From contig NZ_CP109442.1 in the NCBI RefSeq assembly GCF_036227205.1, positions 7,192,001-7,256,000 of the forward strand: 64,000 nt of DNA. Reading direction: 5' to 3'. The notes under the pieces are model-generated. The model saw nothing but the letters and a program-made list of their open reading frames with translations, did not search any database and was not told where the DNA came from. The first letter of the stretch is position 1. Every line of letters starts with the position of its first letter. This document shows positions 8,846 to 42,740 of this stretch, in pieces. A program made the translations under genes and the position numbers. The stretch is from Amycolatopsis sp. NBC_01480 (GTDB lineage: Bacteria > Actinomycetota > Actinomycetes > Mycobacteriales > Pseudonocardiaceae).

Positions 8846-9589
8846 TTACCCGGCGGAACACCCGACGGCGCCGGCGGCTTCCGCGGCCGGGCCGGGTGCC
8901 GGCAGCAGCCATTCGGTGAGCACGCGGGTGGCGGCGGTCGTGAGGGCGGTGCCGGCCCCGGCCGCGGCGTCGCGCAGTGGCTGGGGGTGCAGGCCGAGCG
9001 CGGTGAGGGACTGGGCGTGGCCGATCAGCCACCGTTCCAGCACACGCGGGTCGGCTTCGAGGTGGAACTGGAGGCCGAGCACGTGCGCGCCGACGGCGAA
9101 CGCCTGGTTCGGGCACGCCGGCGTCGAGGCGAGCCGGACCGCGCCAGCCGGGATGTCGAACCGCTCCTGGTGCCAGTGCAGCACCGGGACGTCCGCGAGG
9201 TGCCGCAACGGCGAGCGGAGCCCTTCGTCGGTCAGGGTCAACGGCGTGTAGCCGATTTCGCTGTGCCCGGCGGCCTTGACCGCGGCGCCCAGCGCGCGGG
9301 CGAGCAGTTGCGCGCCCAGGCAGATGCCCAGCGTGCGCCCGCCGCGGCGGACCCGCTCCCGGATGGCCTCGACCTCGGCGGTGAGGAACGGGTAGCGCCC
9401 GGCGTCGGCGGCCCCGATCGGCCCGCCGAGCACCACGAGCAGGTCGGCCTCCGCCGCGGTCTCGGCGCTGATCTCGTGGACCCCGGCGTCGAGGTACAGC
9501 ACGTCGTACCCGAGGCGGTTCAGCACCGGCTCGATCAGGCCGAGGTCCTCGAAGGCGACGTGGCGGACGGCCAGTGCGGTCTGGGTCAT
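8846..9589 (-). CDS. Class I glutamine amidotransferase-like protein
   Basis: 247 residues. The catalytic triad of a GMP-synthase-type GATase1 domain is intact: C90 in TLGICLGAQLLA, H176 and E178 in LQFHLEAD. The oxyanion region VLGGPIGA is at 54-61. No synthetase domain is fused, so it may supply ammonia to a partner or hydrolyse gamma-glutamyl compounds. Such stand-alone proteins are often annotated only as GMP-synthase-like. It is divergent from the glycosyltransferase across a 569-bp gap (9590-10158), where no gene or clear regulatory element could be supported. Confidence 0.85.
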   Translation of the reverse strand: MTQTALAVRHVAFEDLGLIEPVLNRLGYDVLYLDAGVHEISAETAAEADLLVVLGGPIGAADAGRYPFLTAEVEAIRERVRRGGRTLGICLGAQLLARALGAAVKAAGHSEIGYTPLTLTDEGLRSPLRHLADVPVLHWHQERFDIPAGAVRLASTPACPNQAFAVGAHVLGLQFHLEADPRVLERWLIGHAQSLTALGLHPQPLRDAAAGAGTALTTAATRVLTEWLLPAPGPAAEAAGAVGCSAG

Positions 9590-10158
9590 CGGTGGTCCTT
9601 CCGAACGACGCGGCGGGGTCGAGGATCGCGCAGGTGGCCGAAGCCAAGTAGAGCACGGCGACGGCGGCCTCCCCGGAGGTGCCGACCCGCGCCAGCGGGC
9701 GCTATTTCCCCAGGGTTAAGCCATTTTCGGCCGGTTTCCCCGCCGGCTGCCTGGCGATCACGGGCCCCGGCGCGACCGAGGTCACAACGATCACGCGCGC
9801 GACGGCCGTCGACTGTCCGAGCGCGTGCGGCGGCCCGGCTCGCCTCATCGCGCGGTGACGGGAGGGGGCGGGGCATCGGGGCGGCTCCTCGGATCCGGCG
9901 GCTTCATGATCGTGCCGGAGCCGATGTCCGAATGTCAACATTAAAACGGGTGCTGTGAGTGACGCCGCAAGCGCGGTGAGTGGTCCGTTGACGAAAGCGT
10001 CCGAAGTGGACGGTGACCTGCTCAAGAGGGGGATTTCTCTTCCCACTTAACGGTATAGCGCACCCCGGGGCTTGCCGCAAGGCCCGTCGGACGGCGCATA
10101 ATCGCTGCTCCGCGAGCCGCGCGGGCGGTTCGCGGGTCGATGAACGAGGGGATTCCTG

Positions 10159-27083: not shown

Positions 27084-27345
27084 GGGTCTTTGTTCGCGAC
27101 GCGCTCGTTTGGCTGGATGCCGCTCGCGCCAGGATCCGCGGTGATACCGATGAGGGCCCGGTCGTCGTCTGGCCGGGCGCCGTTCGCGCCGTGGCCAAGA
27201 TCCGCGGCGACACTGGCGGGACCCTCGCGCTCGTCTGGCCGGATATCCGTTCTGCTGCGCCGAGGATTCGCCGCGACACCGGCGGGACCTTCGCGCCTGC
27301 GCGACCGGGCGCCGTTCGCGTTGTGGCCAAGATCCGCCGCGCCAA
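27084..27345. repeat. Imperfect ~66-bp tandem repeat in a 668-bp gene-free stretch
   Basis: Between the HPF-like gene and the desaturase (26879-27546) no gene is convincing. Units start with CCAGGATCCGCGG (27129), CCAAGATCCGCGG (27195), CCGAGGATTCGCCGCG (27260) and a partial CCAAGATCCGCCGCG (27327), with a decayed unit before 27129. The 66-bp period equals 22 codons, and both strands stay open across it (plus frame IRGDTGGTLALVWP-like, minus frame PVSxRILA-like repeats), so either a decayed repeat protein or a non-coding repeat is possible. Nothing else was recognised in 26879-27080 or 27346-27520. Confidence 0.6.
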
Positions 27346-39331: not shown

Positions 39332-40807
39332 ATGACGCACACCACGAACGCCTCCTCACCGGCCAGAGAGCGCGCACCGTCCGCGCCCGGGCTGTTGATC
39401 GCGGTGCTGGTCGGATCGGCCTTCGTGATGATCCTCAACGAGACGATCCTCAGCGTCGCGCTGCGCGACCTCACCGCCGACCTCGGCGTGCCCACCACCA
39501 CGATCCAGTGGCTGACCAGCGGATTCCTGCTCACCATGGCGGTGGTCATCCCGACCACGGGCTTCCTGCTCGAACGGTTCAGCCCGCGCAGCGTGTTCCT
39601 CTTCTCGATCTCGGCGTTCAGCCTCGGCACGCTGCTGTGCGGCGTGGCGCCCGGGTTCGGGCTGCTGCTGGTCGGCCGGATCGTGCAGGCCTGCGGCACA
39701 GCGGTGATGCTGCCGCTGCTGATGACCACGGTGATGCGGCTGGTGCCGGTGCACCGCCGGGGCGCGATGATGGGCACGATCAGCATCGTCATCGCCGTCG
39801 CGCCGGCGATCGGGCCGACCATCGGCGGCGCGGTGCTGTCCTCGCTGGGCTGGCGCTGGATGTTCTGGATCGTGCTGCCGCTCTCGCTCGCCGCGCTGGT
39901 GATCGGCGCGGTGCGGCTGCGGATCAGCAGCGAGACCCGCGCGGTGCCGCTCGACCTGGTGTCGGTGCTGCTGTCCGCGATCGGGTTCGGCGGGGTGCTG
40001 TACGGGCTGTCGACGGCCGGTGAATCCGCTGGCGCGAAGCCGTTTGTGCCGCCGTGGGTGGCCATCGTGGTCGGGGTGGTCTCGCTGGTGGTGTTCACCT
40101 GGCGCCAGCTCCGGCTGCAGCGCCGTGACCGGGCGCTGCTGGACCTGCGGCCGTTCACGCACCGCGGGTTCGTGGTGGCGCTGGTGCTGACCGCGCTGCT
40201 GTTCATGTGCCTGATCGGCGCGGGCGCGATCCTGCTGCCGCTGTACCTGCAGACCGTGCTGCACACCTCGACCCTGGTGAGCGGCCTGGCCGTGCTGCCC
40301 GGCGGCCTGGTCCTCGGCCTGCTCGGCCGCCCGGTCGGCGCCTGGTTCGACAAGGTCGGCTCCCGCCCGCTGGTCATCCCGGGCTCGGCGGCCATGGCGG
40401 TCGCGCTGTGGCTGTTCACCACGCTCGGCCCGGGCTCGCCGCTGATCGCGGTGATCGCCATCCACGTGCTGCTGATGGCCGGGCTGGGCCTGATGATGAC
40501 CCCGCTGATGACCGAGTCCCTCGGCGTCCTGCCCGACCACCTGTACTCCCACGGCAGCGCGATCCTCTCGACCCTGCAGCAGGTCGCCGGCGCCCTCGGC
40601 ACCACCGTTTTCGTCACCGTCGCCACCCTCGCGAGCGCGAACGGCTCCGCGGCCAGCCCGGACTCCTCAGGCCTGCACGCGTCGTTCATCGTGGCCGGCT
40701 GCATCGGCGTCGCGGCCTTCGGCATGTCCTGGCTGGTGCGCTCCACCGGCGGCACCTCGGAGCCCGCACCCGAGCCTGAGCCGGAACTGGAGGCGAAACA
40801 GTCCTGA
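39332..40807 (+). CDS. DHA2-type (14-TM) MFS multidrug exporter
   Basis: 491 residues, about fourteen membrane helices. Motif A-like GFLLERFSPRSVF (about 85-97), motif C GIVIAVAPAIGPTIGGAV in helix 5, and the first-helix ILNETILSVALRDL pattern (D/E in helix 1) are typical of EmrB/QacA and Lde-like drug:H+ antiporters. The ATG at 39332 has AGGAG 8 bases upstream. The C-terminal tail TSEPAPEPEPELEAKQS is acidic and repetitive, and its coding sequence is repeated downstream in the 40.8-41.5 kb array. No dedicated regulator is adjacent on this strand. Confidence 0.93.
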   Translation: MTHTTNASSPARERAPSAPGLLIAVLVGSAFVMILNETILSVALRDLTADLGVPTTTIQWLTSGFLLTMAVVIPTTGFLLERFSPRSVFLFSISAFSLGTLLCGVAPGFGLLLVGRIVQACGTAVMLPLLMTTVMRLVPVHRRGAMMGTISIVIAVAPAIGPTIGGAVLSSLGWRWMFWIVLPLSLAALVIGAVRLRISSETRAVPLDLVSVLLSAIGFGGVLYGLSTAGESAGAKPFVPPWVAIVVGVVSLVVFTWRQLRLQRRDRALLDLRPFTHRGFVVALVLTALLFMCLIGAGAILLPLYLQTVLHTSTLVSGLAVLPGGLVLGLLGRPVGAWFDKVGSRPLVIPGSAAMAVALWLFTTLGPGSPLIAVIAIHVLLMAGLGLMMTPLMTESLGVLPDHLYSHGSAILSTLQQVAGALGTTVFVTVATLASANGSAASPDSSGLHASFIVAGCIGVAAFGMSWLVRSTGGTSEPAPEPEPELEAKQS

Positions 40808-41555
40808 GTGGTGCGCCTGCCTCGGCAACGGCCCCCGCCGCCGTTGCTGGGCACCCCGTCTCGAGCGGTGTGCCCGCTCGGTAACGGCCACTGTTGCCGA
40901 GACCGAGGCACGCCGTCTTTTGCGGCCCTGCCTAGCCGCCCTGCCCAGCGGCCGTACCCGGCTACGGCGGCCGTACCTGATGCGCCGCAACAGAATTCTC
41001 GGCCGCGCGGCACGTCGGGGCCTACGCCTACGCCGGAGCAGTCCTGAGTGGTGAGGCCCGGCAACGGCCACTGCCGCCGCTGCCGAGGCCCACTGCCCTT
41101 AGCGGCCTTGCCTAGCCACCGTCCTTAGCGGCCGTATCTGGCCGCGGTGGCCATACCTGATGCGCCGCAACAGAATCTTGGCCGCGTGGCGCCTCGGAGC
41201 CTGTGCCTGAGCCGGAGCTGGAGGCGAAACAGTTCTGAGCGGTGAGCCTCGGCGACGGTCATCGTCGCCGTTGCCGAGGGCCACTGCCCTTAGCGGCTTT
41301 GCCTAGCCGCCGTATTTAGCGGCCGTACCTGACCGCGGTGGCCGTACTTGATGCGCCGCAACAGAATCTCCGGCGCGCGGCACTTCAGAGCCCGAGCGCG
41401 AGCCGGAGTTGGGGGGCGAAAGTGAAACAGTCCTGAGTGGCGAGCCTCGGCAACGAGCACGACTGCCGTCGCCGAGGCCTACCACTTTTGGCGGCCTTGC
41501 CTGGCCACCGTACCTAGCGTTGGCGACCGTAAGTGAGGCGCCGCAACAGGATCTC
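40770..41555. repeat. Array of four units duplicating the 3' ends of two convergent genes
   Basis: The 706 bp between the exporter and DUF418 stops hold no gene. Instead about 190-240 bp units are repeated. Each has a copy of the exporter's last codons (CTGAGCCGGA...GAAACAGTCCTGA-like; stops at 40805, 41045, 41236 and 41434), a stem-loop of GGCAACGGC...GCCGTTGCC type, then GCGGCCTTGCCTAGCC. Last comes a reversed copy of the DUF418 gene's last codons (TGATGCGCCGCAACAGAATC, at 40979, 41159 and 41350; real gene end at 41514). The first unit is about 48 bp longer in the hairpin. Copies are diverged by tens of changes, so the duplication is not recent. Confidence 0.85.
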
Positions 41556-42740
41556 GGCTGGGCCGCGGCAGGAGCGGCGTTGCATGAGATACGCGCCCAC
41601 CACGGACAACACCCACACGCCCAGTCCGCAGCCGGCGGCGATGAACGTTGTGCTGCCCCGGCCGTCGCCGAGGGCGAGCAGGAACGGTGAAGCCAGGACC
41701 AGCCACGCCACCGTCTGGAAGAGGTAGCCGCTGAGCGAGCGCTGGCCCAGTGCCGCGACGGCGCCGATCACCAAGTTGTCGCGCGGTGCCGCCATGGTCT
41801 TCGACAGCCGGTGCGCGAGCAGTCCGAACAGGCAGAGGTAGCCGATGCCACCGAAGAAGCCGGAACCTTCGTAGAGCAGCTTGATCGCCGGGCCGATGGC
41901 CGGGTCGACGGTCAGGAACCCGCCGCCGAGCAGGCCCATCGGCAGCCCGCCCAGCACGGCGACACCGAGGCCGAAAACCGCCCCGAGGCGCAGCCCGCGC
42001 AGGTGCTTCGCGGGCTCCTCCAGCACGCGCCGTCGTGCGGCCCAGGCGCCGACCCATACGAACAGGATGAACGGCAGCATGCTGAGCACGGTCCCCGGCC
42101 ATTCCGTGAGCCGGTCCGCCACCGCCGTGCCGAAGCTGCCGGCCGCCATCGAGGGAGAGTCCTGGGTGGGGGCCGTGGACAGCCCGGACGTGCCGGTCGC
42201 CAGTCCGGTCACCACGACCACAGCCAGCACGACGACGGCGCAGGCGGCGAAGCCGAGATACCAGAGCGGCACCCGGTAGAGCCGGTCCCCGCGGCGCAGC
42301 AGGAGCAGGGTGAACACGATCCCGACCAGTCCGTACGCGCCGAGGATGTCCCCGGCGAACAGCAGGATCCCGTGCACCAGCCCGAAAACGAACAGCCACG
42401 CGTTGCGCCGGACCAGCACGCGGCGCACCGCGGCCGGCGCGCTCCCCGCCGCCTCCTGCCGTCGCGCGAGCTGGACCAGCGCGTAGCCGAACATGATCGC
42501 GAACAGCGGGATTCCCCTGGAGTGCACGAACAGGAACAGGAACACCGTGTAGACGCCCTCCGCGCCGTCGGGTGTCTTGTCCAGCCCTGGCCCGGTCGCG
42601 AAGAAGACCGAAGCGCTGTTGGCCAGCGCGATGATCAGCAGCATCGCCCCACGCGCCAGGTCGGGCGCCAGAGCGCGTTCGCCCGGGCGCACCGGGCCGC
42701 GGACGGCTCTCGGCGCGGCGGGATGGGTCTCAGTAGCCAT
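41514..42740 (-). CDS. DUF418 family membrane protein (YeiB-like)
   Basis: 408 residues, about ten membrane helices. LAPDLARGAMLLIIALAN at the N terminus (the RG-hallmark), SRGIPLFAIMFGYALVQL, LLFAGDILGAYGLVG and the C-terminal GQRSLSGYLFQTV...GPAEILLRRLTYG are the conserved blocks of YeiB/DUF418 proteins, distant relatives of membrane acyltransferases with unsettled function. Its last about 12 codons are repeated in the array beyond its 3' end. Divergent from a TetR regulator, its likely repressor. Confidence 0.92.
   Translation of the reverse strand: MATETHPAAPRAVRGPVRPGERALAPDLARGAMLLIIALANSASVFFATGPGLDKTPDGAEGVYTVFLFLFVHSRGIPLFAIMFGYALVQLARRQEAAGSAPAAVRRVLVRRNAWLFVFGLVHGILLFAGDILGAYGLVGIVFTLLLLRRGDRLYRVPLWYLGFAACAVVVLAVVVVTGLATGTSGLSTAPTQDSPSMAAGSFGTAVADRLTEWPGTVLSMLPFILFVWVGAWAARRRVLEEPAKHLRGLRLGAVFGLGVAVLGGLPMGLLGGGFLTVDPAIGPAIKLLYEGSGFFGGIGYLCLFGLLAHRLSKTMAAPRDNLVIGAVAALGQRSLSGYLFQTVAWLVLASPFLLALGDGRGSTTFIAAGCGLGVWVLSVVGAYLMQRRSCRGPAEILLRRLTYGRQR

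Follow-up and report, generated by a model that had tools for sequence, protein, structure and literature searches.

The whole of the gap between two convergent genes of Amycolatopsis sp. NBC_01480, from the stop codon of an exporter gene at 40807 (plus strand) to that of a DUF418 gene at 41514 (minus strand), consists of repeats made from the 3' ends of these same two genes. Coordinates refer to the window, that is, the whole stretch of 64 000 nucleotides that was analysed. A sister species carries an array at the same junction with another number of units and other joins, and further duplications of gene 3' ends occur in both genomes. The best reading, to which we give a probability of about 60%, is a local tandem array that arose by illegitimate duplication, was then shaped by unequal recombination and drift, and has been tolerated at a convergent junction.

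The 3'-3' junction is present four times, each unit starting at an exporter-type TGA (Table 1), and the distances from one TGA to the next (240, 191 and 198 bp) agree with the four units of roughly 190-240 bp given in the preliminary description of this DNA. The left donor of the repeat is the final ~60 nt of the exporter gene, the start of which is uncertain (39245 or 39395), and the right donor is the final ~45 nt of the DUF418 gene. Every unit contains a predicted G+C-rich hairpin, or two in the case of unit 1, followed by a reversed DUF418 end, which in unit 4 is the genuine one; a copy of the exporter end precedes each of units 2-4. Unit 1 is longer because of the second hairpin inside it. 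That the array duplicates the 3' ends of both genes, as had been claimed, is borne out by several routes. A repeat search gave one family (D5) with copies at 40819, 41055, 41246 and 41444 (spacing 236, 191 and 198), TRF reported 41039-41519 with period 191 and score 551, and self-BLAST, a self-comparison of the kind that had been proposed as a check, aligned 40876-41370 with 41056-41555 at 75% identity (E 4e-98). BLAST of the two gene ends recovered all copies except the exporter-end copy at about 41012-41047, which is shorter than the others. Units 1-3 are 75-83% alike, the last unit of each array, here and in the sister species, having been left out of the comparison; the whole junction has thus been amplified and has since diverged. 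With four head-to-tail copies at a single place, this is a locus-specific tandem array of the kind called a VNTR or prokaryotic satellite. An assembly artefact is thought unlikely, since a 10-Mb contig encloses the array and a different array is found in the assembly of another species.

Table 1. Genes, repeat units, gene-end copies and predicted hairpins at the exporter-DUF418 junction (positions in the window; fold, predicted folding energy).
Feature	Position	Strand	Basis or content
MFS exporter gene	39395..40807	+	ORF, gene call; Pfam MFS_1, E 4.8e-51; sister-species orthologue 95% aa
DUF418 protein gene	41514..42740	-	ORF; Pfam DUF418, E 5.3e-22; sister-species orthologue 93% aa
Unit 1, 240 bp	40805..41044		exporter TGA, hairpins a and b, copies of the DUF418 end and (shortened) of the exporter end
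Unit 2, 191 bp	41045..41235		repeat search, TRF, BLAST of gene ends, unit comparison
Unit 3, 198 bp	41236..41433		repeat search, TRF, BLAST of gene ends, unit comparison
Unit 4	41434..41558		final exporter-type TGA, hairpin, then genuine DUF418 end; repeat search, BLAST, self-BLAST
DUF418 3'-end copy	40966..41011	-	BLAST, 80% to the gene's own end
DUF418 3'-end copy	41146..41211	-	BLAST, 71%
DUF418 3'-end copy	41337..41381	-	BLAST, 76%
Exporter 3'-end copy with TGA, shortened	41012..41047 (about)	+	read from sequence and unit alignment
Exporter 3'-end copy with TGA	41188..41238	+	BLAST, 81%
Exporter 3'-end copy with TGA	41368..41436	+	BLAST, 72%
Hairpin a	40810..40855		fold -25.5 kcal/mol
Hairpin b, second of unit 1	40863..40917		fold -37.3 kcal/mol
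Hairpin c	41048..41095		fold -29.9 kcal/mol
Hairpin d	41239..41286		fold -32.6 kcal/mol
Hairpin e	41437..41484		fold -26.4 kcal/mol

When 80 genomes of the genus were searched, the window's own included, the only other genome with the exporter and DUF418 genes adjacent, among the matches listed, was that of the sister species Amycolatopsis saalfeldensis DSM 44993 (G034). There the two genes are likewise convergent, 1356 bp apart, and the junction holds seven units of ~216 bp with a higher-order period of 433 bp, units S2 and S4 being 96% alike. The unit number, which it had been proposed to compare in related genomes, is therefore four in one species and seven in the other. Five further genomes carry the exporter (G099, G003, G073, G028 and G005); the DUF418 gene was not found in 7-kb stretches of them, and their sequences gave no match to the arrays. 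In A. antarctica (G061) the DUF418 gene is present together with a TetR gene, and ~100 bp separate it from another convergent reading frame; the exporter was not found in the 9-kb stretch compared. None of these six genomes has a tandem repeat past the end of the gene concerned. The arrays match A. antarctica in the DUF418 coding end only, and so that end existed without an array. This bears on the idea that a dispersed element of the MIRU or REP type was inserted at the junction and supplied the genes with new ends. Such elements resemble the array in outline, in that they too show tandem hairpins, but array DNA occurs at one place in the window's own genome rather than at many, and an origin of this kind was ruled out as highly improbable.

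The history of the array can be approached through the joins between DUF418-end and exporter-end copies, although the mapping is rough and depends on the donor ends that are used. With their own donor ends, units 2 and 3 of the window join ~45 nt of DUF418 to ~61 nt of exporter; in the sister species all six joins connect 69-81 nt of DUF418 to 86-124 nt of exporter. For unit 1 the join falls at 81/14 by its own donor ends and at ~45/52 by those of the sister, which place the joins of units 2 and 3 at 63/34 and 39/58, respectively. The different joins fit separate amplifications in the two lineages, or one old array that was homogenised within each species and later altered by a deletion. A tree built on the shared core of the units clusters them by species (support 85/88) and sets units 1-3 of the window apart from the unit with the genuine DUF418 end (94/98), with no branch reaching the threshold for strong support. 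Clustering by species would also be expected from concerted evolution, and therefore the tree leaves undecided whether there was a single ancestral array or separate amplification. We consider an array predating the species split, homogenised in each species and with one join changed by deletion, to be a serious possibility, if somewhat short of an even chance. It would account for the junction common to both species and for the window copies being 20-30% different from the genuine gene ends, when orthologous gene ends differ by ~10% between the species; the species-wise grouping and the differing joins speak against it. It should be noted that such an ancestry is compatible with the duplication and drift that we prefer.

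A predicted hairpin occurs in every unit in both species, and the part of the preliminary description that placed a stem-loop in each unit is thus upheld. Their strength is less uniform than was described: against 400 random 50-mers of the window (mean -18.4 kcal/mol, 5% point -26.6, 1% point -28.6; the hairpin pieces have 48-55 nt), three of the five window hairpins fall below the 1% point and two stop short of the 5% point. Over all twelve, the seven of the sister included, energies run from -24.9 to -37.3 kcal/mol, with 7/12 past the 1% point and 5/12 short of the 5% point. A terminator scan of 40500-41800 found no hairpin followed by a T-run, the form of an intrinsic terminator that was sought, where shuffled sequences gave a mean of 0.6. 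Terminators of actinobacteria may dispense with the T-run. Its absence is for that reason only a weak point against termination, and a terminator role for the predicted hairpins is plausible. No Rfam match reached its gathering score; the four candidates (the HDV ribozyme, Ms_IGR-4 and two miRNAs) scored 21.8-24 bits against gathering scores of 50-79 and were dismissed.

It has been suggested, in the preliminary description, that the array may act as a multi-step barrier to transcription, and in its fullest form this reading holds that selection has kept extra copies of a shared bidirectional terminator for lowering read-through into the gene opposite. Besides the hairpin in every unit, the variation of the stems can be cited in its favour: in alignments of five, four and three window hairpins, letters vary at 25/188, 11/112 and 14/114 in stem columns and at 14/50, 24/80 and 6/30 in unpaired columns, and in a rougher alignment of four window hairpins column variation is 0.075 in stems and 0.283 outside them (0.118 and 0.143 in the sister). 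This comparison is, however, biased towards lower variation in stems, since the structure was predicted from those very rows. Pairing itself is no better kept than under random substitution. Paired cells number 126/140 in the sister (null mean 122.6; 15% of nulls as high) and 37/40 in the window (null mean 36.6; 52% as high), the window set here comprising four of the five hairpins, a left out, with one row out of register. Double-sided changes in these alignments number none in the sister and one in the window; after realignment the window sets of five, four and three hairpins have 80/93, 52/56 and 49/57 paired cells with one, two and no double-sided changes, so that two is the most in any window alignment. 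Nor does the hairpin have a clear advantage in whole-segment identity in the window (0.756, against 0.780, 0.867 and 0.760 for the other segments); in the sister it is marginally the best conserved (0.835, against 0.800 over three sites, 0.820 and 0.737). Thus, lower stem variation in the window is retained in favour of the barrier, and the lack of a T-run and the pairing tests count against it. We regard a selected barrier as unlikely, and the extra copies may simply be redundant.

How often gene ends are duplicated in this way was surveyed in the window and 60 further 20-kb stretches of its genome (G000), and in the locus and 20 further stretches of the sister genome, 1.67 Mb in all with 1441 gene calls, made by our own codon-usage script instead of an annotation pipeline. 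The last 75 nt of each gene together with 60 nt beyond was searched for in the next 2 kb. Copies were found for 14/1419 3' ends, or 10/1415 once the four matches of the studied locus in the two species are removed, and for 2/1356 5' ends in the equivalent test, a borderline difference (Fisher p 0.039 for 10/1415 against 2/1356; 0.066 without the weak case L122, whose 69% match lies beyond 1.2 kb and past the near end of the neighbouring gene). Seven of the ten outside cases have a convergent neighbour (7/542 ends) and three a co-directional one (3/849; p 0.054). These enrichment p values, of 0.04-0.07, come from tests framed after the first cases had been seen. In 400-kb samples from another member of the genus (G013) and from another family of the order (G047), copies were found at 0/334 and 0/333 3' ends and at 0/326 and 0/314 5' ends. 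Among gaps of at least 30 bp, a tandem repeat of whatever kind is present in 7/134 convergent, 14/386 co-directional and 6/179 divergent ones in G000; the corresponding counts are 7/36, 5/115 and 2/51 in G034, 2/26, 2/87 and 0/48 in G013, and 1/30, 1/92 and 1/54 in G047. Arrays of any kind are somewhat commoner in other convergent gaps (12/168) than in the remaining gaps (27/731; p 0.058), which may be added to what favours a barrier.

These counts bear also on the possibility of a mutational hotspot, at which replication stalled by head-on transcription or by the hairpin itself would lead to repeated local duplication at convergent junctions. The different joins at one junction in two species, the excess of copies at 3' over 5' ends and the seven convergent cases among ten would all be in keeping with this. 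Against it, the joins sit within the ends of the genes and not near the hairpin, and duplications across 5' ends are probably also removed by selection, so that the 3' excess needs no hotspot. Although compatible with our preferred reading, a hotspot seems rather unlikely. A wider proposal is that convergent junctions are hotspots in this Amycolatopsis lineage, and that arrays have formed there repeatedly and independently from shared transcription ends, whether through collision-driven duplication, through selection for stacked bidirectional terminators or through both, giving a class of 3'-end satellites; this we judge quite unlikely.

Illegitimate duplication followed by drift, the reading preferred here, would have begun with a segment whose two breakpoints lay inside the 3' ends of the convergent genes. 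Later enlargement and partial homogenisation would have come about by unequal recombination between units, as is suggested by the two-unit blocks of the sister array. The duplication would be tolerated, the outermost copies keeping both genes intact and no promoter being added; this is an argument from reasoning. The repeat may correspond exactly to the shared end region because a convergent 3'-3' duplication spares both genes and adds no promoter, and a function is not needed for it. Surplus 3' ends, stop codons and hairpins would be mostly drifting passengers, and at the RNA level the hairpins may, as redundant copies, halt or stabilise transcripts arriving from either gene. We infer the mechanism of duplication, its near-neutrality and any effect on transcription. 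Against this reading stand the arrays at the same junction in both species, when only 6/168 other convergent gaps hold an array that reaches a gene end; shared ancestry, a hotspot or selection may lie behind this. The lower variation of the stems, the marginal lead of the hairpin segment in the sister, the hairpin predicted in every unit, the dependence of the joins on the donor ends and the borderline enrichment count against it as well.

Amongst known systems, prokaryotic satellites (PMC6749651) are likewise local tandem arrays; a row for Amycolatopsis mediterranei in that paper gives 23 for 10.2 Mb, which we take as 23 satellites. The words convergent, terminator and downstream are absent from its text, and in the part available duplication of gene ends does not appear. 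Mycobacterial MIRU-VNTRs, such as that of the rnc-fpg1 spacer, are also tandem intergenic arrays of actinobacteria that vary in number between relatives; the available text describes the rnc-fpg1 array as beginning 40 bp past the stop of one gene, ending at the start of the next and missing in species outside the complex (PMC2734929). The MIRUs are, however, elements of 40-100 bp at 41 scattered places according to the same portion, whereas the present array occupies a single locus and is built from the ends of the two genes that flank it. The tandem repeats of Borg elements are described, in the part of the paper available, as starting within gene ends, turning over rapidly and arising independently, with one example missing in a close relative (PMC9879509). 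Their units are ~20 nt and perfectly repeated in that part (PMC9879509), in contrast to the diverged units of ~190-240 bp described here, which extend across two convergent gene ends. A literature search over titles and abstract openings found no description of arrays built from two convergent gene ends. Duplication of the junction had been presented as a stand-alone case outside any known class, and this is not supported, given the other 3'-end tandem duplications in both genomes and, on the text available, the Borg repeats that start in gene ends (PMC9879509). The locus suggests how small satellites could arise and persist in a gene-dense bacterial genome: at a convergent junction, tandem duplication with both breakpoints in coding DNA need not break any gene. 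Since the survey found repeated cases of 3'-end duplication in two sister species and none in the samples of two other genomes, the choice between hotspot, tolerance and selection becomes testable.

The closest parallel in the survey lies in the sister genome (L137 9605-9922, or C27 ~39605-39922), where a gene without a Pfam match and a LysR gene converge and the ends of both are repeated, in three copies (region 9526-9939, C27 ~39526-39939). In G000, neither a self-repeat nor matching sequence lies beyond the stop of the left gene's orthologue. A second case, in which the end of a DUF1905 gene is repeated within a convergent gap (L077 6440-6642), is confined to G000; both genes are adjacent in G034 too, where the counterpart has a different, weak repeat (69%) and the DUF1905-end repeat was not found. 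A duplication of almost 300 bp (86%) that takes in the end of the minus-strand gene is found in a convergent gap of the window's own genome as well (L111 18091-18736); for this and for L143 no orthologous junction was found in the comparison between the two species. Some survey cases are weak: Pfam gave no match for L122, L128, L147 3190-3651 or L137 8880-9605, and for L111 and L142 only matches below the curated cut-off. Several further repeats were seen in passing. In the sister, an array lies 3' of the gene for a large DUF7507/DUF11 protein (L155 7276-7976), with six matches to its 3' end within 2 kb, and near-identical (96%) tandem repeats with a 108-bp offset occupy a divergent gap, possibly a promoter region (L148 7539-7947). 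In the window's own genome, a diverged array of ~1.9 kb fills part of a convergent gap and does not reach the gene ends (L117 12361-14297), and within the window itself a diverged tandem repeat (offset 126, 75%) lies at 27100-27344 between two co-directional gene calls.
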